Below the pieces are notes generated by a model that was not told where the DNA came from, made no database searches, and worked only from the letters and a program-made list of their open reading frames with translations. This document shows positions 27,772-64,000 of a DNA stretch of 64,000 bases, piece after piece (the stretch's first letter is position 1; every line of letters starts with the position of its first letter). Position numbers and translations under genes: made by a program. Source of the stretch: Pleurostoma richardsiae (lineage: Eukaryota; Ascomycota; Sordariomycetes; Calosphaeriales; Pleurostomataceae). Location: assembly GCA_030052745.1 (NCBI GenBank), contig JANBVO010000042.1:238844-302843 (forward strand), given 5' to 3'.

Positions 27772-28389
27772 ATGGCGGACACGGACACTTTCACCCTCCT
27801 CCCGCTCAAGCTAGATCCGCAGTCTAAGGCGGTGACAAGCACGTCGCCCTCGCGCTCACTCGAGGCCGAACTAGCAACCCTCAACAGCCTTCATCGCTCC
27901 CTCCTGGGTCTCGAGTCACCTCACACGGTCCCCCCACCGCCCATACCTGTCAACCCAAAGCGGAGCGCCAATGTCGCCAAACTGCGCGACAGCGGCAACG
28001 CCGAATTCCGCAAGGGAAAGTACGTCGACGCCATCAAATTTTACACCTTAGGCCTGCAGATGGCTCTGACGCGGCCGCTCTGGGAGCCGCAGCAGCTCGT
28101 GAGGGAGGAGGTGGCCAGCCTGTACGCCAACAGGGCGCAGGCGCACATGGCGATGCAAGGCTGGGCAGAGGGTGCCGTGGACGCGGAGGCGAGCGTCGAG
28201 GCAAAGAAGATCGGTAATGCTAAGGCATGGTGGAGGCGTGGCCGCTGCCTGATGGAGATGGGCCGATACGACGAGGCGAAGGAGTGGGTTGGGCGAGGAT
28301 TGGAAATGGAAGGGGAAGAAGGCGAGCTGGTCGCACTGCTCAGGGACATCGATGGAAAGATTGTCAAGGGGGGGAGTGGCGGCGCCTGA
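27772..28389 (+). CDS. SEC72: SEC72-like subunit of the Sec63 translocation complex
   Basis: Cytosolic TPR subunit that helps post-translational import of secretory proteins into the ER, working with Sec61, Sec62 and Sec63. Single exon, 205 residues from the ATG at 27772 (GTCATGG context). An upstream non-ATG extension is ignored. The N-terminal 60 residues are specific to Sec72/Sec71-like proteins (TFTLLPLKLDPQSKAV). Then come TPR repeats: GNAEFRKGKYVDAIKFYTL (about residue 80), YANRAQAHMAMQGWAEGAVD, and AWWRRGRCLMEMGRYDEAKE. Length matches fungal Sec72 (about 200). Intact and ordinary. Other short TPR co-chaperones are possible but fit the N-terminus less well. Confidence 0.85.
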   Translation: MADTDTFTLLPLKLDPQSKAVTSTSPSRSLEAELATLNSLHRSLLGLESPHTVPPPPIPVNPKRSANVAKLRDSGNAEFRKGKYVDAIKFYTLGLQMALTRPLWEPQQLVREEVASLYANRAQAHMAMQGWAEGAVDAEASVEAKKIGNAKAWWRRGRCLMEMGRYDEAKEWVGRGLEMEGEEGELVALLRDIDGKIVKGGSGGA

Positions 28390-29142
28390 ATGGTGCTATC
28401 TTCTCTTCCGCCGGTTCCATTGTTGGCAGTACTTACCGAGGAAGATAACATTCTCAGCGCATAACCACCCACAGATGACAGGGTGTACAATGGCGTTGGC
28501 AAGGAGTTTTATGGCGTTCACAGCATACACTGTTGATCTGGGTTGATGGTACATGTTACCGTTACTGGGATAACTATGGAAGGAGCATGACGCGGTCATT
28601 CTTGCCATCGTTACATCGGTAAAGATGGAGTGTTTTGTGCGTCCAGACCGCAAAACGACGGCTATATAATCCGGTGCTTATATCAAAAAGAGTCTTGATG
28701 CTTGCTTGCCCAACTAAAATCATATTATCACACTCCCCAGCAAAAGGAAAGAAGCTGAAGGGAAATTACCCGCATCTGCCTTCTCATTCATAGACCACAT
28801 CTTACCTTGAGGTCTCATCCGGCCCCGCCGCCACGTCCTTGCATCTCCAAATAGTCTGGCAGACCACAAGACCCAATGAGCCAGAAACATTCTGTAACTT
28901 TCGTAGGAGGGGCATCGCAACCCACACATCAATACAAAGGAACGTGGATACCTGAAGGAGCCAACCTAAAGGTGCCATTATCCTCAGTAGGCCATATCTT
29001 CTCCCCTGACGGGTTCTCCTGCTGCAAATGCTCTGTTCCCATTCTTTGTTGCGAGAACTCGCGACCTTTTATGAGGCCCTCGAGTGCCACCCTTCATCTG
29101 GACCATTCCGTCTTCGGTTTCGGCATATAGGCATACCACAGC
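28390..29142. other. Intergenic, convergent 3' ends
   Basis: 753 bp between SEC72 (+) and the small minus-strand gene. Should hold both 3' UTRs. Open frames here are shorter than 90 codons and unremarkable. Confidence 0.5.
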
Positions 29143-29409
29143 CTACGCCTTCTCATTCACGGCGGCGGCAGTGCTTTGTGTACGCTTCCTCATAACGGCG
29201 TCCTGACCATGCATCCGCCGGTCCAGGGCGCGCTCGAGCTTAGCTCCCAGGGCCAGCTTAGAAAGGTTGGCGCTTTTCTCTTCTGATAGGGCTACGCGCT
29301 GGCTGGCAAGAGCCTTGTTTTCCATGCGATCAAGGCCCTTCTCAATGTCGCGAATTTCGGCGGTTGCAGAGTCGGTAGTCCGGACGGTGGGCGTGAAGGA
29401 GGGAGCCAT
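29143..29409 (-). CDS. Small conserved-looking fungal protein of unknown function
   Basis: 88 residues from the ATG at 29409 (MAPSFTPTVRTTDSATAEI). It is dominated by charged helical sequence (EIRDIEKGLDRMENKALASQ, then KLALGAKLERALDRRM) with a heptad-like spacing of Leu/Met/Ala, so a short helical hairpin or coiled coil. No signal peptide or membrane segment. A TTACAG acceptor lies about 30 nt upstream, so a 5' exon (coding or leader) is possible. I believe similar small proteins occur in other ascomycetes, but I cannot name a function. Confidence 0.6.
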   Translation of the reverse strand: MAPSFTPTVRTTDSATAEIRDIEKGLDRMENKALASQRVALSEEKSANLSKLALGAKLERALDRRMHGQDAVMRKRTQSTAAAVNEKA

Positions 29410-31053
29410 GCTGTAGGTGCTATATCGAACAGATGTGCGGGCCTGTAAGAGACAGGACACCATGTAAGTTACACTAGCTGGTACGAAAGATCGGCTGGTC
29501 TAGAGTGTAGACAGGTGGGTGGTGTCTCTGCAAGGGCTCAAGCGATGACTTGGGGAAGAACGCAGTGATGATCTTGCCAAAGCACATGTGTCGGTCGAGA
29601 GTAGAAGTAGGGTGAAGGCAAAGGCGGTCAAGCCACGAAGGGGAGACGACATACTGAAGGGGCCATGATAGGCCGCGCGGAATCGAGCGAAGTCCGCATC
29701 TTGGGATTTCCTTTGTCCTACACCGTTGTCTTGTCGTGGCCTCGCCGGTGCAGGGATGTGAAAGAAGAGAGTTGAGTGCTGTCGATGTACGTTCGTTGCA
29801 GGTTTGATCCGAAAGGGGATAATTTGAAGGCTGAAACGTGGAGCAAGAAACAGCACGCAGCAAATGTGACGTAGATTGCCAATGCCAGGGTATCACTAAG
29901 GTAAGGTTCGTAAAATAAAATAAAAAAACAGCCTCCAAATCGTCCTGTATCGTCGGTGCCGGGGAATGTACTTTGTAAGGTAGGTATTGCAAGCCGGGAG
30001 AGCGGAAAGGGAGTGAGAGTGAGGGCGAAAGGATGAAAGTAGAGGGTGGTTTGGCTTCGCATGCAATGAACCAGACCACGGAGAACACCGGGAGCAAGTT
30101 GTCTTAGCTTAGCGACCGGTACATAATTCACGTCGCCAGGTTGGTACACCCTTTCAGGTTTTCAGGTAACTGAGGTTAGTGTTGGATAGGTGATGTACCT
30201 AAGTGGAGCTCTTCCCCATCGACCTCAAACAAAAGGTGCGGCGCCGTATCCCCCTCCCGTGCGGCAGTGAGAGTACCAAATACCTTAGGCTGCTCAGCTC
30301 TGATAGCGATCAGCAGTGCTTTGTCCTTCTCTGCCTATCCAACCTGCCTTACTCATAAACTCCTTGACTGACCCATGTATATGAGATGATGCACTGGACT
30401 TATAGCTGGACGTGACAGGACGTCTCCCATATTTCCGAGCTGCAGCCACAGGTGCCTACCACAGACGTCGGGCGGAGCAGGGAAACGGCCAATGATAAGT
30501 GGTGGTACGGAGTACCTTGCCCCTAGTCAACTACCTTGGGTACCTTAGGTGTCTAAGGTACTTATGTCAGCTTCACGCATGGCTTCCGCGTGCTCTACAC
30601 GTGGCCCAAGATCGAACCATCCCGCTTACCTTCCGCCGATCCGCCCACCGCTCTTGGCCGAGGCCTGTTGCCACATGCCCATCCGTCCAGAGGCATCTTC
30701 TCTTCACTTCAGACCGGACTATGTATCATATTCAGGTATGTCGGCACGTCGGCACGTGTTCAGGCCTACAAAATGCAAACTGACAATTGATCAAGTTGAG
30801 TACATAGTATGTTAACTATTGAAGGACCCTCTTGTCCATTGCTAGCTTCATCTCCTCTTCGAGTGGAAGAGGCCAGCGGGATTCCACGGATAATCCCCTT
30901 TCTTTCTTTCGCCTCGCCTCGTGCCTCGAGTCCGCCCCTCCTATTTTGGCGCACCCTACCCTCCACCCTCAACAGCGCGGTTCAGAGACAATTCTTGCGT
31001 CTCTTCTCGACGGCATGTTCTGTTAACGTCACCTCTCGCCCGCGTCCATGGCC
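29410..31053. other. Intergenic
   Basis: About 1.6 kb. It holds the promoter and leader of the small minus-strand gene, and TACCTTAGGT-type motifs at 30505-30566 that match the cluster at 13.5 kb. The CT-rich plus strand near 30880-31020 gives spurious open frames. No gene supported. Confidence 0.5.
30505..30566. repeat. TACCTTAGGT / GTACC motif cluster
   Basis: At least four self-complementary words (GTACGGAGTACC, CTACCTTGGGTACC, CCTTAGGTG, CTAAGGTAC) in about 60 bp. Same family as the clusters near 13.5 kb and 50.7 kb. Confidence 0.6.
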
Positions 31054-31718
31054 CTAAGTGTCTCGTGATCTATGGTCTTTCCTTTTCTGTGAGGGTTTGC
31101 CTTTCTTTCCGCTGTAGTCCAGCCTGATGTCATATGAAGGCCTTCTCTCCGCGGCCGCCGGGGGCGCAGCCTCGTCCCGATCCTCATGCACACTAGGAGA
31201 CGTCGTTGCCGAAGCCGACACCCCCTTCCGGTGCAGGCGTGGTGGACCTGGACCCTTGCGGCTCCCACTGTGTCGTCGGTGATCACCGGGCTGACCTTCC
31301 CCGTTCGTCTCTGCGGACGAAGCTATTGACATGGTCAGGCACCATCAAGTCTACCGGCACCGGCTCCAGGTCACTCACGATGTCTGGTGCAGCTCTCGCA
31401 ACAGCCATGGTCGCATGTCTCCACCATCTCCCAAAGCTCTGTGAGATGGTTCTTGACCCACTTTGGATTCCTGAATGTACACCAGCCTTGCGTGTTGGGC
31501 CCCTGATTGCAAACGCAACACGTCCAGCTCCCGCCGTTGGCCTTGAACTCGCAATTCTGGAGGGGACATGCCATATGTGTCGGCTGCGATGTTGCGAACG
31601 TGATATTGGAGCATGGCGTCTCGTAGCCCGTCTCCAGATCGATCAGAGCTGCCGGGCAGTAATGCCAGGTCACCGACTGATGGGAGCAGGGGTGATGATG
31701 TGGATGGCCGTGACACAT
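31054..31718 (-). CDS. Small Cys/His-rich (probably zinc-binding) protein, tandem family member A
   Basis: First of three tandem paralogues on the minus strand. Exons are 31718-31379 and 31322-31054. The 56-nt intron has GTGAGT, a CCTGAC branch and a CAATAG acceptor, giving 202 residues. Without splicing it would end at 115 residues. It opens MCHGHPHHHPCSHQ, with a second block CPLQNC, then WTCCVCNQGPNTQGWC and CDHGCCESC. These Cys/His pairs are shared with members B and C in the same order and suggest at least two zinc sites, RING-like in flavour but not a recognised RING. Exon 2 adds a basic, low-complexity tail rich in Lys, Arg, Ser and Pro. No signal peptide or membrane segment. A TATA box is about 183 bp upstream. 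Fungal genomes carry families of short proteins beginning MC with a C-x-H motif; function unknown. Confidence 0.68.
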
Positions 31719-33145
31719 CTTCAGAACTCGCTGCAGCCCCAAGGAGGCTGGCTGTTGGTCTATGTGCGAGAATCGTGTGCCAAGGCAAAATTGGCGGTCC
31801 GCTGAGGCTCGCTAGCTTGCACCGCTTCTGAAGGAACCGCTTGTCTGCTTCTTCACAGCGTCGCTTGCACCAAGGATGGAACGGCCGCCGGTGTTTGCCC
31901 TTTATATACTCCCAGCTCCTACTCTGCTGCGCGCTCGAATGCTGCCATATTGTCTGCCACACCCTGCTTCCCATTTCGACCTCCATCACCACCATGTTGG
32001 TCTATCGCCTGCGCCATGGAGGCAGCTCGGCGGCGTGAAAAGAAGCAATATAGGTAGCCCTTTGCTACGCGACCAATCAGCGTTGTCTACGCCTTCAGCA
32101 ACGACATGATCGGCGGCAGAGTCTTCGGTGCCGGTCGATGCACACTGTGTGCGCCACAGGAGGAGCTCAGATCCGTGTCTCGGAACTTACAGTGCGCCTC
32201 CGCTTACGGGTGTACGAGATGATGCACCTCTTGCCATAGCGTACATTTTCGGAATTCGCTAGAAAAGGACAGGGAGCCAAAGCCGCGGGTCATGTGCGAC
32301 GTCTGTGACACTCTGCATCGCGATGCTGCATCAGATCATCCCCTACCAACAACAAGCTCCGTACGACCACGGAGCGAGTCGCACTGCCCGATCGTCTCCC
32401 AACAGCCTGGCTCTCGGAGATCTCTGTGGTTGCCCAGAGATCTCACTCATACGTCTCTCGGGAAATTGCCAATGGAGGGTCGGTCAGCGTCTCAAGAACA
32501 CACACCATCGACTCTCGTTGGTCTCTGTGGGCCGTCCGTGCGGCCTTGGACTCCGAAAATCATCGGCTTTTACCCTCCACAGTTACACCACAATCGCTCT
32601 GGATTGCATGTCAAGCCTCCTTTCCCGCCAGTCTCCGCTATGTGCCGACACGTCGAAGCTCTTATGATCCTACTGCCTCATCGACCTCGCATTTCATCTA
32701 GCGCAGCTTATCTTGCGAGACAGGGGAGTGAGGCGGGCTTTGCACCCATCTCGCTCTATATCATGTTCCTTCCCAGCTGACACGCCAGCCTCGCCAAGGC
32801 GTTGTCGCTGTCCGGTACAGCCTGATGACGCTGCACTGCTTTTTTTTCTTTCGCTCGAAATCCGATAGTGGCAACCTCGACATCCCTGTGGCTCCAGTTA
32901 CCATCATGAAATAGGGGCCGCGAGATCTCGCAACACTCGGCACTGTCACTCGCCATGCTGGAAGCTCCCCCACCGTTCACTGGACCACCGGCGGTAATCT
33001 GGTTGCTTCAATCGGCAATTGGATTCTTATCAATGACTCGGAGAGTATCTCCAAGGGATCTCGCTAACTTCCATGAATTGCTACGAGACGACTGAATCTC
33101 CTCATCTTCGGTCCAGAAGCACCTGAGCCCGCCTCAACGGACTGT
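31719..33145. other. Intergenic between Cys-rich genes A and B
   Basis: About 1.4 kb. I searched the minus strand for a fourth MC...CxHxCCxxC copy and found none. Plus-strand frames at 32292-32780 have no domain. Nothing else seen. Confidence 0.5.
31901..31908 (-). promoter_or_regulatory. TATA box of Cys-rich gene A
   Basis: TATATAAA on the minus strand about 183 bp before the ATG at 31718. No other ATG lies between, which supports that start. Confidence 0.5.
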
Positions 33146-33622
33146 TTACTCTGACACACCAGGATCGGCAGCCGGCTGGCATGCTTCGCAGCAGATGTGC
33201 TCGCATCTGAACTGGTTACCGTCAATGATCATAATGCAGCCACATCGGCCCTGCTTGTTCCCGCTTTTGCCGCACCAACAGCAGTTCCAGCATCTGTTCC
33301 GTTCCTCGAATGGGCACCTAGGTAAGGGGCACTTAGGCAGAAGTGGCGAGGCAGCTGCGGTCGAGGGATTGCCATGGAAGCTAGGTGGGACGGGATAAGG
33401 AATGGACTGTTGAGTGAGGTTCCGACACGGCTTCCTCTTCGGTTGGGAAGCACTTCCCTGACCTGGCTCGAGCCCACGGTCGGTACTCCTCTCGGCCTTC
33501 CTGCCGCCGACCATTTTGGCGGGCGACTCTGGTGGTGATGGCACGGCCGAAGCGTCTGCACAGTAAACAATGTGTGTCCTGACATGCTCGCAGGGGAGGG
33601 TATAGGTCGTTTGGTGACACAT
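33146..33622 (-). CDS. Small Cys/His-rich (probably zinc-binding) protein, tandem family member B
   Basis: 158 residues from ATG 33622, single exon. It opens MCHQTTYTLPCEHVRTHIVYC, whose first 12 residues match the common fungal MC...PCxH start. A long Pro/Ser/Lys-rich spacer (about 25-95) separates it from the second block, CPLPRC, then CWNCCWCGKSGNKQGRC and CEHICCEACQP. Order and spacing of the Cys/His groups parallel members A and C, so they are paralogues despite low overall identity. A TATA-like CTTATAAA lies about 168 bp upstream. A GTGTGT near the stop could be a donor for a tail exon as in member A; I could not find a clear partner. Function unknown. Confidence 0.66.
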   Translation of the reverse strand: MCHQTTYTLPCEHVRTHIVYCADASAVPSPPESPAKMVGGRKAERSTDRGLEPGQGSASQPKRKPCRNLTQQSIPYPVPPSFHGNPSTAAASPLLPKCPLPRCPFEERNRCWNCCWCGKSGNKQGRCGCIMIIDGNQFRCEHICCEACQPAADPGVSE

Positions 33623-34435
33623 GTCGAACAGGAAAGGATTCGGCATATATGCCTTTCGTCGCCTGTACACGAGGCCGATGAGTAGTCCGTTGCTTCAACG
33701 CAAGTGTTGCTCAAGTGAGTCTCGCCTGCTTGAGCCTGTCCTTGCCAACAGGTCTCTTTCTCAGCTCTTCGTGCGAAGCTGCCACTTGCCTTATAAAGAC
33801 CTGCAGGGCATCTCTTTCTCGCACTTTGAGACGGAGGCTTATTTCCTCTTATGCGGCTTTTACCTATGTCCATTCAAAGATCCGGACGGTCAGCTGAGAG
33901 TTGCCCGATCGCGCCTTGAATAACTCTCCTTCCACGTCGCTTTGCCCTTGGTCCGTTTCTTGTCGGAAACGGTGTTGTCATCAGCTGCACTCTGTTTCGG
34001 CCATGTCAGCTGAAGGAGTTCGACTAACACAAGGGAGTTCAGCAACAATGACCCTCAGCGGCAGGCGTCAGGTTGGACAAGCTTTGCCTTCTTGCTACTT
34101 TCGTTGTCGCTCAAGGCTTCTTGCTGTCCAATGAACATGATTGCCTCGCAGTGGGGTCTTACATGGTCTCATATCGGAGTCTCCATCACCTGACAACATA
34201 GCCAGCCCTTGATGTTTCAATTTCCTACGGTATCAGACAATGTCCCGCGAGGAAGCAAGCCCTGTGTCTGCTCCACACATTCATCTCACTACATTGACCG
34301 CGAGTATCAGTCGATAGAGGTGAGCAATGGTTAGAAGAGATGGTCATTGCATTGAAAGAGGCCAGAATCACAGACTATCCCCTCCCCTGGCCTTACAAGC
34401 CGGCGGGTCTTCCCTTACAATCATTATCAACATGT
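33623..34435. other. Intergenic between Cys-rich genes B and C
   Basis: 813 bp. No additional family member or other gene recognised. Confidence 0.5.
33790..33797 (-). promoter_or_regulatory. TATA-like element of Cys-rich gene B
   Basis: TTTATAAG on the minus strand about 168 bp upstream of ATG 33622, similar in distance to the element before gene A. Confidence 0.4.
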
Positions 34436-34822
34436 CTATTCCTGCTTCCGCTGGTCGGGCTGGCATTCTCCGCAACATATGTGGTAGCAGAATGTGTCGG
34501 GCGCCCCTCGCATCCGGTGACTGCAGAATCGAAAGACGTTGCCTCCCCGGTTACATCGACAGCAGATCCATAGCCGGTTAAGCTGGTCCAGGCGACACAG
34601 TCCAGCAATGCAATCAGGGCTTGCCAGGCATCCACCGCTGGCGCACGGGTTGTTGTAGTCAACGCTCTGGACTGGATCATACGACTGATCCTGGCAGGGC
34701 TGATGGTCGCCCGTCGCCGCATCCATGGTCGCCGCGGCACAGAAGATATAGTGGACGACGATGTCGATGGCTCGATTGCAGGGATGAAAGTGGTGATGAT
34801 GAACGTAGTAATAGATACACAT
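34436..34822 (-). CDS. Small Cys/His-rich (probably zinc-binding) protein, tandem family member C
   Basis: 128 residues from ATG 34822, single exon. N-terminus MCIYYYVHHHHFHPCNRA has a run of His where A has HPHHHPC. Then come CASGGC, WICCRCNRGGNVFRFC and CYHICCGECQP. The final block lines up with CEHICCEACQP of member B and CDHGCCESC of member A. The middle carries extra Cys (PDCIAGLC). No secretion signal is evident. The frame is open a little upstream, but only from GTG. Function unknown; shared architecture with A and B is the main evidence that the frame is real. Confidence 0.64.
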   Translation of the reverse strand: MCIYYYVHHHHFHPCNRAIDIVVHYIFCAAATMDAATGDHQPCQDQSYDPVQSVDYNNPCASGGCLASPDCIAGLCRLDQLNRLWICCRCNRGGNVFRFCSHRMRGAPDTFCYHICCGECQPDQRKQE

Positions 34823-37811
34823 GGCAGTTGCGCTCAGGATCGCTGTCACCACTCTGAGCTCCTAGTCTGAGAAGGTCTTAGCTGTCTTTAGGGCTGTACG
34901 AGCGTGCACGGCCTCGCTCATCTGCTTCCACGGGTCTCAGAGCTAAGTCGACGATGAGAGTGGTGAAGCAATTTTTTGGCAGTTGCATGGGCCTAGCTGA
35001 GTGCGTGTCTGCAACAGCAGCTCGCGGGCTAGGATTCTGTCTTTGAACTGAGCTGTTGAGCAAACTTTCGAGAGGCGTTGTAATTGAGCGAGAGATCCAA
35101 GCCTATATGCCCAGTGCCTTCTCTCCTGGGTGCAAGCGTTGTCCTAAAGTCAATTTGTGATGACGCCCGAGCAAGGTCGTAGAGCCTCGGCCGCCAGCAG
35201 AATGATTCGAAGGGCTCTTCACTTCCGAGCAGCAGAATGAGGGTGTGGTTTGCTTCCAAAGGGGATCTGCGCCTCCGGTAATACCCTCCAGACAACCTAG
35301 GCAGGGAGAAGGGCTCCTCATTTATATACTGTACCTCTTGCGGCCTCAGCGGTCGTCTTCGGTCATTTTTATGGTACTGTTCCCCAGCAAGACGGGACAC
35401 ATGGGGGCTTTCTAGACAAGCCAGCTCAGAATAGACGATGCCTCTTCCATTGTAGGATACACCGGCAGCCGCACGCACACGTCGCTATAAGTCCCATTCT
35501 GTGAAGAGCTCTATCAGCTGGTAGCGATCCGTGGCTTCAATATTCGACCGCCATTTGTCACATTGTCCGACTGCCCAGAGAGCAGTTGTGAAGAAGCTCA
35601 AGCACGTGGCGTCCTCGTGCCCACAATCTCCTGCATCAGACAAAAACGTGGTCAGCACCAAGACCGGACATAAGACACGAGACGGAACACAAAAGTGAGA
35701 CACTCAGACAGATTTAGGAAAGACCTGGCCATTTTGATTTAGGGTGGTCCGTGAAATCCTATAGCTTGCTTGCCCGAAAGCGGCAGTGGCGCAGTGCGGT
35801 GTCGTCTAGGCGTTGTATTAGACAGGGGGCTGAGGGCGGCATCCGCGGAGTGCTGTGTTGGATGCGCTTGGGGTTCGAAGTTTATGTCTGTGGCAACGGG
35901 ATCTTATGTGTCCGAGCCTTTTCGACTTCCTCTCTTGCTCGTCATCCACCTTGAGCGAACTGGACACAGTCGACTCCCTGTCCTGGCAAATGCCGGGCTA
36001 ACACACCGACCCAGGCCTATCTAAGGTACTTACATGTGGTTCGCTGTGGCAGAAACTTCGAGTACACCTCCTGGGCTGCAAGTCGAGAAAGCAGCAACAT
36101 TGCCTTATCTGCTAAGATTTGTTCTCCTAGCTCTTTGTCGTAATCAGGTAGCATAACTCCCAAGAGAATGACGAAGTTGCACCTACTTCGGACTGTGAGT
36201 AACCAGTTTTTCTATTATAGACGCGGCGGCACGAAGCTCGTGGGGCAGCAGAATGTAGATATTAAGCACTTAAAGTTCCCACAGTATATCAACATCAGCT
36301 GCCGCAGCGATATGTGGGCGATGATGGGGAATTCGATACCCAGGTTGCCGTGTGCATCGATTGATCAGCATCACGCACTTCAGTGAAAGTAAAACATAAA
36401 TAAGGTTGGAGTCAATGCCAGGCAAGCGTAGACTTCAGCAGCGGGTTGCACGAACTTAAGGTACCCCAGGCGAGTTGTGGCCAAAATAACAAGCTAGATG
36501 TTGCCGGTTCACGCTCTTACAAAGCCTTCTCCGCGCCTCGTAACAATGCAGCTTGTGGTTTAGTGGCATCCACGTGCTCTCCGATCTCTCATTCTCAGGG
36601 TATGATTTCATATGCACTAGAAGGCGGATTTAGGTTGAGGCAGCGTGGGAGACGCGTGGTTGACAGCTGCATTGAAACCTCACTTCGTGGCCCACTTTGC
36701 GGCGAGTCCAGACGTTCCATGGGGTGCCGCATATGTCATAGTGAGCTGACACAGCAGGCTTCGTAGGACAGTCTTTGTTTCCGGTTGCAGTTGCCTCCGC
36801 TACTTGGTGGAGAGGCGCTGGACCGCCTTCCAAATGTGTGGTGTCACAGCCATGTGGTCTGAATTGAGCGAGCTCTTAGAGTATCGGCAAATCCGCAGCC
36901 ATCAATGGTTCGTGACCAAACCGGAGGCAGGGAAAAAAATGTTAGTGAAATGTAATCCACAGGCTTACATGCTCTGGTGGCTGTTCAACGTGAGGAGCTC
37001 GATAACAGTCAAGATTAACAACGCGGAGGATTACTCCCGGTATTACGCTCGTTTCACAGCCACAGTCCCATTCTCACCCGGAAGACATCAATCAATCAAG
37101 ATCTACCGTGAATCTGTCGTCTAAGTGGTTGTTATTTTACTCGTGAGGGCTCAAGAAAGTGAGAGTGTGTCGGCATCTGAAACCATAGATGTCGAATCAT
37201 GTGAGGACTCTACTGACCGTTCACCTGTGGAGTATCACAAATAGGTCATCAGGAAAGCGATTGCAGCGCTATCAAGCATCATAACCTATGGCAGTTGCCA
37301 CTGCATATCTCTTGCAGATCAACCTCTATTTCATGGATAAGCATGTATCCGTTCACACGCTCCTCATGGGCTTCATTCAACCGCTGCACAGCACCCTTTC
37401 GATTTCTGGCCCTGGTTTCTCTCGCACCTTTGGATCGAACTACGTCACAAGCACATATTCGGGCGCTCGAAGTCTCGCTCCAGAAGCAGCGTGCTGAGTC
37501 CTAGATAGAATTCTAGGTTCCACCGCACAAACGGAGTTCCTATATGTATATACACAACAGCTATTGGCCCTTCATTGTCCGTCTGGGGTTATCTACATGA
37601 CTGATACTGTCACAGGAAGGTTTGGATGCATGCTAGCTGCCAGCATGGAGCGAACGGAGTCATCGCAAGACACCTTGCCATGCAAACAGCCGTGGATGCG
37701 GGTTTCACTACCCTCGCAGCAGAGAAGTCAGCTCAACACGGCTGATCGTTCCATCAATATGGCATGCCAGATGTGCTAGCATGGCTGTCCCCATCTAAGG
37801 TGGGAAAGTAG
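34823..37811. other. Interval with possible gene fragments, none resolved
   Basis: About 3 kb. Two minus-strand stretches look protein-like: 35703-35485 contains GDCGHEDATCLSFFTTALWA after a possible acceptor. About 36190-36040 reads GVMLPDYDKELGEQILADKA between a CTCACAG acceptor and a GTAAGT donor. They might be exons of one unrecognised gene, but I could not join them. On the plus strand, 36834-37124 (96 codons, MCGVTAMWSELSELLEYRQI) is an isolated ORF. None is called. Confidence 0.35.
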
Positions 37812-59019: not shown

Positions 59020-60362
59020 AATGGTTTTTTATTAATAATAACGTAGTATAAAGCCTTATTATTAATTAATATTAAAGAAAGGTATAAATTATTTAAAATA
59101 ATTAAAATATATTAAAGTTCTCTATTTATTTATTTTTATACTTTTTCTATCTACGTAATGCTTCTTTAATAAATTTTAAAGCTTAATTTTATCTTAAAAT
59201 TACTTTTTCCCTTCTTTTTTAATATAAAAGAATTAATGTATTCATAAAGTAAAAAAGAAAGATATAATATAAAAAGTAGTATATTATTAATTATAAAACT
59301 TTAAATTATTAGTTATTCTCTAAACGTCTAGCGGATAGCTTTAAAAAGAACCTATACAGGTCCCAAACCTTAAAAAAGGGCTGGCTAGTCACTGCTACAA
59401 TAAGTTAGTACTTATTACTTAAGTTAACACACAGGCAGTTAAAACTAACTACGTAAGAGTCTACATAGACTAAAGCATGACGTTCAAGTCAGGATATCAG
59501 GTAATATAGTAGTAAAAGCTTAATTCTCTATCTAAGATATCTATCTGCCAAGCCTACCTTATATAAGGTTAGGCTTAGCGTCTTACGTATTAGTTAAGTC
59601 TAGATACTCCTTAAGAGAGTACCTAGAATATTATAGTATACCCTTATTTAAATAAAAAGAAAAACAACGTTTTAGTTATTTAATTTAATGAAATCCCTAC
59701 CTTATTTATCTTACATTGTATTTCCTTCTTTTTATTAATTTTATAACTCTTTATTAAAGCTTATTAATTAATAATTGGGCCTAACTTTTTTCTTCTTAAC
59801 TCCACGTTTATTATAATTATCTTTTAGAAGGTTACGTTTTACTATTAAAATAGGAATACTAAAAATTAATATCGTAGAACTAATACCTCTTACTAATAAC
59901 TTCGACTTTAATTTAGGTATTTATTTAATTATAAAAGTAGCTTTGTTAACGTTTTTTTGAAAAGTACGGATTTCGGCTTTTATTTTATTAAAACGTACTA
60001 TTATTCTATTAATATCTTTAATTATATCGCGTATTTTATTTATAATTTTAGTTTATATTTATAAACTTTATACGTTATTATCGTATATCAAATTAAATTT
60101 CGTAAGCTTTTTATTAAAATAAACGACGTTCTCGTTAATTATCTTAATTTCACCGTCGAATCTTACTAAGTACTTCTTCGAAAAGCCCTTTTAATCGTTA
60201 AAACTTTTTTCAAAGCGTTTAACTTTACTCTCTGTATTTTTAACTTTTTTTTCGGTAAAGTTTACTTTATCTTATAACGCTTTAATTATTTTTATTATAT
60301 TAACGATTATATACTTTATTATTATATTATAACTAGTATCCGGTTATATTACTATTACGTTA

Positions 60363-60711
60363 TGTAAAATATATTACCTTTTTAGGTTTAATAAAACTTT
60401 AAAACAGTTAAAACAACTCTAAAACACTAGAATAGGCTCCAGCCGAATTCTAGGTAATCTAAAACAACTATATCTACAAATATTGAATTCTAAAACAACT
60501 AAACGTTCCGGAATAAAGATAACTAGTTTTATATTTCGGTAAGTAAGATATCCGGTTTCATATTTCGGTAAATAAGATATCCGGTTTTACAACTATTACA
60601 AATCCAAATTCAATAAGAATTATATATATCTAGAAGAAAGACTGTAGAATTAGAAAAATAGCTAGAGAGTATTACAATCTGAATCCATTTAACCCCTTAC
60701 CTACTTTAACA
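60363..60711 (+). repeat. 5' LTR of the copia element
   Basis: Begins TGTAAAATATATTACC and ends TTTAACA directly before the primer-binding site, so it has the expected TG...CA ends. Length about 349 bp. The start was fixed by alignment with the degraded copy at 58852. A 29-bp direct duplication lies inside. Confidence 0.75.
60532..60589 (+). repeat. 29-bp tandem duplication inside the LTR
   Basis: Two adjacent 29-nt copies beginning TATTTCGGTAA. They differ at only two positions, G-to-A and C-to-T, again RIP-type. Confidence 0.85.
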
Positions 60712-60723
60712 GGTTATGAGCCC
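60712..60723 (+). other. Primer-binding site complementary to initiator tRNA-Met anticodon stem-loop
   Basis: GGTTATGAGCCC immediately follows the LTR CA end. It is the complement of GGGCTCATAACC, the anticodon stem-loop of eukaryotic initiator tRNA-Met, as in Drosophila copia, which primes from a cleaved half-tRNA. It survived RIP and anchors the LTR boundary. Confidence 0.75.
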
Positions 60724-61295
60724 GGCTGCCCATACCTTTTACATCTAACAAGTCTATCTAATTACATTCAAGTTTTTAAACCTTATTTCACTTCAACCAA
60801 TCATATTACATTATTTTCCACGTTAAAATTAATTTATTTAATACGTTTTTATACTAATTACAAACACCTTTTATTATAAAATTGTACTCTTTTTCACGTT
60901 TTCTCCACGCCCCGTAACCCGATCACGTAATTTATAAGTATAATCAGAAGATAACTAGTTTATCTACTGTTTTATACTACAACTTGTTATAACGAAAAAA
61001 AATTCGAATTTTAGTAAGCAACTACAAATTAGAATTGTATAAAGAACGTAATTACAACTTTTATACAATCCTTAACTTTAACTACTTCTTAAAAATCGAA
61101 TATAAGAACCTTTTAACTATAAAAAATATATAATATAACTAATATATAATACTAATAATATCAGTTACCAACTTCCGAATCGGGTATAGCATCGATTTTT
61201 AAAATCGAAACGGAATCACTTTTCAAAATATAATACTATATAAAATCTCGACTATTAAATAAAAATACTAATAAATTAATTTATAACTATAAAAA

Positions 61296-62102
61296 ATATC
61301 TACCGAAAAAGTTTCTATCCAGAAACTTAAAGGCACTTCTAATTATAAAGTTTAAGCCCTTCGAACCACTACCTTCCTAACGAAAAAAAGCTTAAACGAT
61401 GCAATTAAAGCCGATAATTCAACCAACAACGCAAAAGCCCTTGTAACAATCCGTCTTCTAATAGAAAATAGCCCCCTACTGCAAATTCAACACCTAAATA
61501 CTACAAAATCGACCTAGAATTCCTTAAAAGATTTATATTCTTCAAAGGGATTTATATCGGAATTCCTTATTTATAAGGAATTCTTCGATTCCTACTTGTC
61601 TAAGTTTTCTTCTATAGAAGAATTCTTAAATAAAATAAAACAACTGTCAGACCAGTTGAAGGCTAAAAGCCTAGAATTACCTAAACAAGTAATAATTGTT
61701 TGGGTATTAAATAACTTATCTGAAACTTACGACGGATTTATATCTAACGTTACCTAAAACCTTAGAAATAATTCTAACGCTTACACGTTAGAAACGCTAT
61801 TTACATACCTTTTAAATAAATCTAGAAGACAGGAATTACGAGAATGTAATATCAACTCGATTGATAACGGTAATTACGCCTTTTATATTAAATATAAAGG
61901 TAAAAAGCTATATAAAATTATAAAAAGAAGGGTTTGTAAATACTACAAACTAACCTCATATAAAGTAAAGAACTGCTTCTTTCTATTCCCAGATAAAGCC
62001 CCAAAAGGCTAGAAATAGAAACAAAAGGAATTAACTAATTCCTCTTCCTAAAGTGACGAAAAATTATTTCATCCAAGGGATATTCGGGAAAACAACGAAG
62101 AA
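61296..62102 (+). pseudogene. gag region of the copia element
   Basis: Same frame as pol. Capsid-like sequence is readable: ALVTIRLLIENSPLLQIQHL, then IEEFLNKIKQLSDQLKAKSL and VLNNLSETYDGFISNV. A zinc knuckle lies at 61935-61976, where a Cys and the His of the CX2CX4HX4C box are now Tyr (TAC, TAT), the outcome of G-to-A or C-to-T change. In-frame stops are at 61353, 61515, 61755, 62010, 62016 and 62049. The likely start codon position (61296) reads ATA, consistent with a lost ATG. Confidence 0.8.
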
Positions 62103-64000
62103 GTGTTGTTTACCAACACTTCTACCCAAACAACTAAAGATTCGGATACAAGTTTAATCGATATTGACGACTTCGATATAAATAATATCGAATTTGAAGA
62201 TATAAAGGTATTTATAACTAATATCACTACTAATAACGAATTAATAACTAATAAAGAATTAAATAAACTAATCTCTTCTATTGATAATGTAAAAGAAAAT
62301 TTACGAAACTATAAGGTATTTAATATCCGTGAAAATATAAAATATAATATTAATTTTATATTAGACTGCGCTATAATAAGGTATATAGTTACGGATAAGA
62401 GTTATTTTTACTCGTTCTTTCCTTATAATAAAAGAGTTAATTAGGGAAATATAAAAACAATAGATATAAAAGGATATAGAAATGTATATATTGAATTTAT
62501 TGATTTTAAAATAAAAACTATATTAAAAAACTGTTTTTACATGTCTAAACTAGGTGTAAATCTAATATTACAAGGAAATCTTAATAAAGAAACTAAAACA
62601 ATTTTAACTTATACAAACGCTATCTTAATGCAAAATAATAAAATAATAACAAAAAGAAAGAAGATAGAAAACTTATACTATTTACTAGTTAAAATCATTA
62701 ATATAAAAGAATAAATCAACCAACTATTATATATAAAAGAAGATAATAGTATTTGGCACTAACGAATGGGTTATATAAACAATAACGTATTAAATAAATT
62801 AAAAGAATCTACTATTAGTTATAATAATAATAATAGCAATCATAATATAAATGATTGTAAAATATATATAAAAGCAAAGTTTACAAATAAAATAAATTAC
62901 AAAGTAAATAATAAACAATTAGATTACTTAGAAAAAGTAGCAAGTGATTTATACAGACAAATTAGACTATATATTTATGATAACTATAAATATTTTATTA
63001 CTTTCTTAGATAAATCTACTCGTTATTTAGAAGTAAAACTATTAAGAAATAAAAATAAAACCTTTAACGCTTTTTATAAATATAAACAAAGAGTAGAAAA
63101 TAATAAAAATAACTATAAAATAAGAATATTTGCTACAAATAACGGAAAGGAATTTATAAATAAACGATTTAAAACACACTTTACTGAAAATAGAATAATT
63201 CACCAGAATTCAGCACCTTATACTAAAGAACAAAACGGATTTATCGAACGAATAAATAGAACGTTATTAAATAAAGTTCGAGCTTTATTATATAATTCTA
63301 ACTTACCTTTCTATCTTTAGGGAGAAGCTTTATATACTACGGTATATTTATATAACCGTACACCTCATAGTGCAATAAACTATAAAACACCATATGAATT
63401 AAAAACAAAAGAAAAACCAGATATTACTAATATTAGAATATAGGGTTCTATTACCTTTTATAAAAATAAAAACGTACAAACTAAAAAACTAGACCCTAAA
63501 GCAAAAAAAGGAGTTCTAATAGGTTTTAGAACAAATCAATACCGTATTTAGGATTTAGAATTAAAAAGAGCTATATAGTCCAGAAACGTTAAAATCTTAG
63601 AAAATAAGTTTATCGAAAGTAATATAGATAACGATAAAATAAAAGGATTTCTAGAATCCTTTACAGATGAATTTATAGATTTAACTAGTAATAATAATAA
63701 TATATATGAAAATATACAAGAAGATATACAAAATCATAATACTTTGAGAAATTTTAAAGAATATCACCAAGATAATGATATAGATGAAATTGACGAACTA
63801 GCGTTAGTTTCGTTAACAAACAGTATAAATAATGAACCAAAAACATATAAACAAGCAATAACTAGTATAAATTCTAAAGAATAGATAAAAGGAATGATAA
63901 ATGAAATAATAAGTTTAGAAGACCAAAAAACTTATGAAATAATAGAAATACCTAAAGATGAAGAATTAAATATATTACGTGGAAAATGGGTATATAAACA
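62103..64000 (+). pseudogene. pol region (protease, integrase, start of reverse transcriptase) of the copia element
   Basis: Same frame as gag throughout. Protease-like FILDCAIIRYIVTDKSYF (about 62350), GAG-pre-integrase RMGYINNNVLNKLKE (62763), then the integrase core: TFLDKSTRYLEV (Asp), FATNNGKEF and NGFIERINRTL (Glu). In FATNNGKEF the second catalytic Asp appears replaced by Asn. YLYNRTPHSAINYKTPYEL follows. The end (GKWVYK) is the first reverse-transcriptase motif. In-frame stops: TAG 62442, TAA 62712, TAA 62760, and TAG at 63318, 63441, 63549, 63576 and 63882. Several of the TAG stops stand where copia proteins carry Trp. Inactive. Confidence 0.85.

Follow-up and report, generated by a model that had tools for sequence, protein, structure and literature searches.

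A tandem trio of strongly diverged cysteine-rich paralogues, putative small zinc proteins, in the ascomycete Pleurostoma richardsiae

The window analysed here, i.e. the final 64 kb of contig C74 (JANBVO010000042.1; 302,843 bases) in the genome of Pleurostoma richardsiae (39.4 Mb, 136 contigs), contains three small genes, designated A, B and C, which all lie on the minus strand and start at 31718, 33622 and 34822, at intervals of 1.9 and 1.2 kb, as a preliminary description of this DNA had stated. Exon 1 of gene A (31379..31718, minus strand; 113 codons plus 1 base) begins with MC and continues with HPC-x-H, C, PC, C-x4-C, W-x-CC-x-C-x4-N-x4-C and C-x-H-x-CC-x2-C. Left unspliced, gene A encodes 115 residues and its frame closes at the stop at 31371-31373; just ahead of this stop stands a GTGAGT donor which, together with a branch-like CTGAC element and a TAG acceptor, defines by consensus a predicted intron of 56 nt (31323..31378, minus strand). 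The likely exon 2 (31054..31322, minus strand) would add an 89-residue tail that has no Cys and contains 24 K/R/H versus 12 D/E. The splice-site consensus and the joined frame of 202 residues make this extra basic tail exon, proposed earlier for gene A, plausible.

Gene B (33146..33622, minus strand; 158 aa) is a single exon as read and has a longer linker between its N- and C-terminal Cys blocks. Its open frame extends upstream of the chosen start, with another Met 8 codons earlier, and the MC start was assigned because it resembles the starts of A and C. Gene C (34436..34822, minus strand; 128 aa), also a single exon as read, carries PCNR in place of PC-x-H. A GTGTGT donor-like site is present near the end of gene B and the donor scan found none at the end of gene C; since other such sites occur within A, B and C alike, B and C may contain introns and their single-exon reading is putative.

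In the three-way alignment 24 columns are invariant, 14 of which are Cys. The N-terminal block consists of MC, PC and a further C, followed in the middle by another PC, and the C-terminal block consists of C-x4-C, W-x-CC-x-C-x4-N-x4-C and C-x-H-x-CC-x2-C. The ordered Cys/His blocks previously claimed for all three proteins are thus present, with one exception, the His after the first PC, which is found in A (PCSH) and B (PCEH) and not in C (PCNR). Two spacings need to be restated: the pair given as C-x3-5-C exists and is precisely C-x4-C in all three proteins, and the W block, described with an x5-N spacer, reads C-x4-N in the alignment. Identical Cys columns amount to 14 of 16 (A-B), 14 of 15 (A-C) and 14 of 18 (B-C), i.e. 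78-93%, versus 24 of 90, 21 of 89 and 26 of 102 identical columns, i.e. 24-27%, among the aligned non-Cys positions, so that the statement of almost no other identity was too strong. At the DNA level, differences at third codon positions exceed those at first and second positions (66 versus 51 and 50 of 106 codons in A-B, 67 versus 53 and 55 of 104 in A-C, and 80 versus 59 and 55 of 120 in B-C), and identical residues are frequently encoded by different codons (16 of 38, 20 of 35 and 19 of 40, respectively). The third-position excess and the synonymous changes fit selection at the protein level, and give no date for the duplication; the fast evolution suggested in the preliminary description may equally well be great age.

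Judging from comparisons of their sequences, A, B and C are true paralogues of one old and strongly diverged tandem family. Local alignments scored 131 (A-B), 135 (A-C) and 133 (B-C) versus means of 46.6, 43.6 and 42.0 for composition-preserving shuffles with the first two residues kept fixed (z = 9.8, 11.1 and 12.0), and in none of the 1000 shuffles per pair was the real score equalled; reversed sequences scored 55, 33 and 52. Composition-corrected pairwise BLASTP, each time against one sequence, gave E-values of 1.6e-6 (A-B), 1.5e-7 (A-C) and 1.2e-10 (B-C). In a search of the whole genome, query C recovered B (E = 5.7e-5) and query B recovered C (E = 1.4e-4), and query A recovered neither of the two. 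Duplication, conservation of Cys and divergence elsewhere, all three advanced in the preliminary description, are supported by the shuffles and the column identities. Recent tandem duplication was considered and is ruled out: even with E-values up to 1 allowed, DNA matches among the three segments span no more than 32 bases, the best of them, between B and C (E = 3.8e-4), falling within the coding part, and the region 28000-37000 yielded no tandem repeat array.

Two-member profiles were also compared with 8653 frames, namely the open stretches of at least 25 codons from the window and L001-L071, which overlap, so that the trio is counted many times. The B+C profile found A at E = 0.002, A+C found B at 2.4e-7 and A+B found C at 0.073. 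A low-complexity frame in L003, taken as a chance match since the ligand order is not seen in its alignment to the trio profile, reaches E = 0.004. Because of this frame the profile E-values must be regarded as optimistic and, taken alone, are no proof of kinship for A or C; the kinship of the trio rests on the shuffles.

Searches of the same genome, narrow at their first stage, revealed no other intact member of the family and only one interrupted relic (G000:C126:678980-679303, corresponding to L056 1477-1815), found with gene A as query (E = 3.2e-4). The relic shares with gene A the motifs HPC-x-H...W...C and W-x-CC-x-C-x2-GPN, is interrupted by 3 stops within the match (1 TGA, 2 TAG) and sits in DNA of ordinary G+C content. 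Its E-value with the trio profile, 0.0014, is borderline given the score of the L003 frame, and its assignment is based on the search with gene A and on motif order. Apart from the relic, no further copy was found at E < 0.05 with any of four profiles in C74:200001-240000, 38.8 kb of which lies outside the window, and in C126:659001-699000. Because the first look of the genome search was narrow (1 to 6 candidates per protein query) and A misses B and C, these family counts are lower bounds, and equally diverged members would be missed.

When the genome was scanned at the DNA level, C-x-H-x-CC-x2-C occurred at 14 places versus 10 in the reversed control, and W-x-CC-x-C at 214 versus 107, a two-fold excess that may reflect further W-x-CC-x-C proteins beside CTG-rich repeats. 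Among all 14 places of the former and 30 of the 214 of the latter that were inspected, a frame on C13 was the only one beyond the trio that looked related. This frame (near 534552; L053/L072) and another on C70 (near 261715; L073), both with putative gene models, are dispersed small frames whose mutual relationship is supported by E-values of 3.7e-7 and 8.8e-7, and both contain W-x-CC-x-C...N...C...C-x-H-x2-C-x2-C, the ligand order of the trio from W onward. Weak matches on C49 (query A, E = 0.03), and on C69 (0.0245), C58 (0.0485) and C62 (2.82) with B, were rejected for want of the ligand pattern, as judged by a Cys-density filter and, for C49, also in three frames; the C70 piece used as query gave a weak match on C46 (E = 0.0876).

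Curated libraries gave no family for these proteins. No Pfam family matched A, B or C at E up to 10, in a scan whose HMMER filters discard most weak matches, and NCBIfam likewise returned nothing for the trio at E up to 10, in agreement with the earlier remark that no function is assigned to this architecture. The trio profile found nothing in the PDB; a PDB search by sequence with C alone gave three weak matches (best E = 0.048, an ALK/ligand fusion), which we take as chance. Among contigs of bacterial and archaeal genomes 99 stretches, and among viral contigs 178 stretches, fitted narrow peptide patterns, and none was confirmed as a relative of the trio. No such proteins are named in the titles and abstract openings returned by a literature search. 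The trio therefore has no family name in the libraries searched, yet it is an ordinary kind of protein. Short fungal proteins with an MC start and C-x-H are common in Pezizomycotina proteomes.

We propose, with a probability only slightly above one half (about 0.52), that A, B and C are small intracellular proteins with an N-terminal cluster and a C-terminal zinc-held binding domain. The spacings C-x-H-x2-C-x2-C and C-x2-C are typical of zinc ligands, and zinc binding, as deduced from ligand spacing, is the most likely role of the shared residues. The conserved Cys and His would hold structural zinc, probably one ion or more in the N-terminal cluster and another one or two in the C-terminal block, where C-x4-C, the C-x2-C within W-x-CC-x-C, a lone C, C-x-H and C-x2-C could serve as ligand pairs in a RING-like order from which the last RING pair is absent. 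The proteins most likely remain inside the cell, and their domains may bind proteins or nucleic acids through surfaces that have diverged around a retained metal core; the basic tail of A may bring the protein into the nucleus or into contact with nucleic acid. A bolder version, which we regard as rather speculative, is that the three proteins share a two-cluster zinc domain not described so far, limited to some fungi, in which an N-terminal C...C-x-H...C cluster is combined with a RING-like block that has CC doublets and is without the last pair, with binding surfaces diversifying under conflict or nuclear-regulatory pressure and only the metal core kept.

Several observations weigh against this proposal. 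The His following PC is not kept in C, and the profile link of A to B and C is weak, with E-values that are optimistic in view of the chance frame in L003. A usable structural model is also absent: AlphaFold2 with the three-sequence alignment gave a mean predicted local distance difference test (pLDDT) score of 37.3 for gene A and of 55.1 for the C-terminal block of C, both too poor to use, the latter being best at residues 11-30 and showing short strands only, and Foldseek with this poor model found no match in the PDB. The folded zinc module put forward earlier agrees with the ligand pattern, and these models speak neither for it nor against it. Finally, the highest 15-residue Kyte-Doolittle mean in the first 40 windows is 0.47 for A and 0.63 for B, neither of which has a hydrophobic leader by this measure, and 1.72 for C, which is moderately hydrophobic at residues 19-33. 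Since this stretch might serve C as a leader or anchor, we lowered our confidence in intracellular zinc proteins from 0.55 to its present value.

The same stretch slightly raises the standing of another explanation, that the trio comprises disulphide-rich small cysteine-rich proteins that are secreted or wall-associated and bind no zinc. The 14 shared Cys columns, the small size, the divergence and the tandem duplication would all suit such proteins, as would a block with signs resembling repeat-induced point mutation (RIP) in A+T-rich DNA at the contig end, about 23 kb off. However, A and B lack a hydrophobic leader, and adjacent CC pairs together with a kept C-x-H are generally better suited to metal than to disulphides, so we consider this explanation unlikely. 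That the three frames are chance Cys-rich open frames and not genes deserves mention, given that this G+C-rich DNA abounds in long frames that arise by chance (116 stop-to-stop frames of at least 40 codons were listed over 7 kb), and an open frame alone is no proof of a gene here. Such an origin is hardly credible and is rejected in view of the same-frame cross-homology, the third-position excess and the uniqueness of the strict motif W.CC.C-x3-5-N-x3-6-C-x8-25-C.H.CC..C, which occurs among the 8653 open stretches in the trio's own frames only.

The remaining explanations concern the C-terminal block. It could be a divergent RING-type domain, which would make the proteins parts of ubiquitin ligases, and the order C-x4-C, C-x2-C, C-x-H, C-x2-C does recall the first part of the RING cross-brace; we hold this to be improbable, given that the seventh and eighth ligands are missing in A, B and C and that Pfam returned no match. 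A tentative suggestion, compatible with intracellular zinc proteins and one that we take as a real possibility short of an even chance, is that the block belongs to a wider fungal superfamily defined by W-x-CC-x-C...N...C...C-x-H-x2-C-x2-C and including the C13 and C70 frames. These frames are related to each other and share the ligand order, and among the 8653 frames, in which the C70 locus was not yet included, a loose version of the motif selects only C13 beyond the trio. On the other side, profile-profile comparison of the trio with the dispersed frames gave probabilities of only 28% and 23%, over no more than 12-13 columns around W-x-CC-x-C, and the C13 frame reaches E = 1.5 with the trio profile.

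Upstream of the three genes we noticed, after the fact, TATA-like elements that hint at regulated expression and lend weak support to it: AGTATATAAA at 31901..31910 (minus strand), about 190 bases upstream of the A start, and at 35321..35330 (minus strand), about 506 bases upstream of the C start, and a weaker element, TTATAAGG, at 33789..33796 (minus strand), about 174 bases upstream of the B start. The ten letters AGTATATAAA are identical before A and before C. Within the first 58 kb, the minus strand has 3 occurrences of TATATAA, two of them preceding A and C, 12 of the looser TATAWAR, three of them (two overlapping) at the trio, and 4 of TTATAA.

Elsewhere in the window, 8 of 10 frames compared with Pfam matched families that make up a fungal set: a Zn2Cys6 regulator with Fungal_trans_2, PhyH, a GH64 glucanase, Ytp1/DUF2427, an ARMT1-like protein, a sugar transporter, GFO/IDH/MocA and TPR. 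The contig end (58000-64000) is A+T-rich, with a G+C content of 22-32%, and 60001-64000 shows a RIP-like dinucleotide bias (TpA/ApT 1.25; (CpA+TpG)/(ApC+GpT) 0.53). By eye, the last bases of the contig resemble what we take to be a decayed copia-type reverse transcriptase (RGKWVYK).

Confirmation of the family across fungi would supply a name, and a fold open to testing, for a group of fungal genes that are so far uncharacterised, and would offer a clean case of paralogues that retain chiefly a metal core; if it turns out to be merely one more small zinc module, it would have little importance beyond annotation.

Comparison with known systems places the trio beside three kinds of sequence. The C13 and C70 frames differ from it in lacking the MC...PC block, the C-x4-C before W (in the aligned pieces) and the second CC doublet. 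RING fingers (C3HC4 and related) are defined by four pairs of ligands, eight in all, in the pattern C-x2-C ... C-x1-3-H-x2-3-C-x2-C ... C-x2-C. The trio resembles them in the succession of C-x2-C and C-x-H-x2-C-x2-C, but opens with C-x4-C as its first pair, has an additional lone Cys in between and contains adjacent CC doublets. No Cys follows C-x-H-x2-C-x2-C in A (tail included), B or C, so the seventh and eighth canonical ligands are missing; with the eight-ligand pattern incomplete and no match to a curated Pfam profile, the trio probably falls outside the RING fingers. RanBP2/NZF zinc fingers follow the pattern W-x-C-x2-4-C-x3-N-x6-C-x2-C, whose closing C-x2-C is absent from all three proteins, and here too no Pfam match places the trio in the family. 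As in these fingers, W-x-C-x2-C leads on to a conserved N and then a C in the trio, but the trio differs in its C-x4-N-x4-C spacing and in the next ligands common to all three proteins, which are those of C-x-H-x2-C-x2-C.

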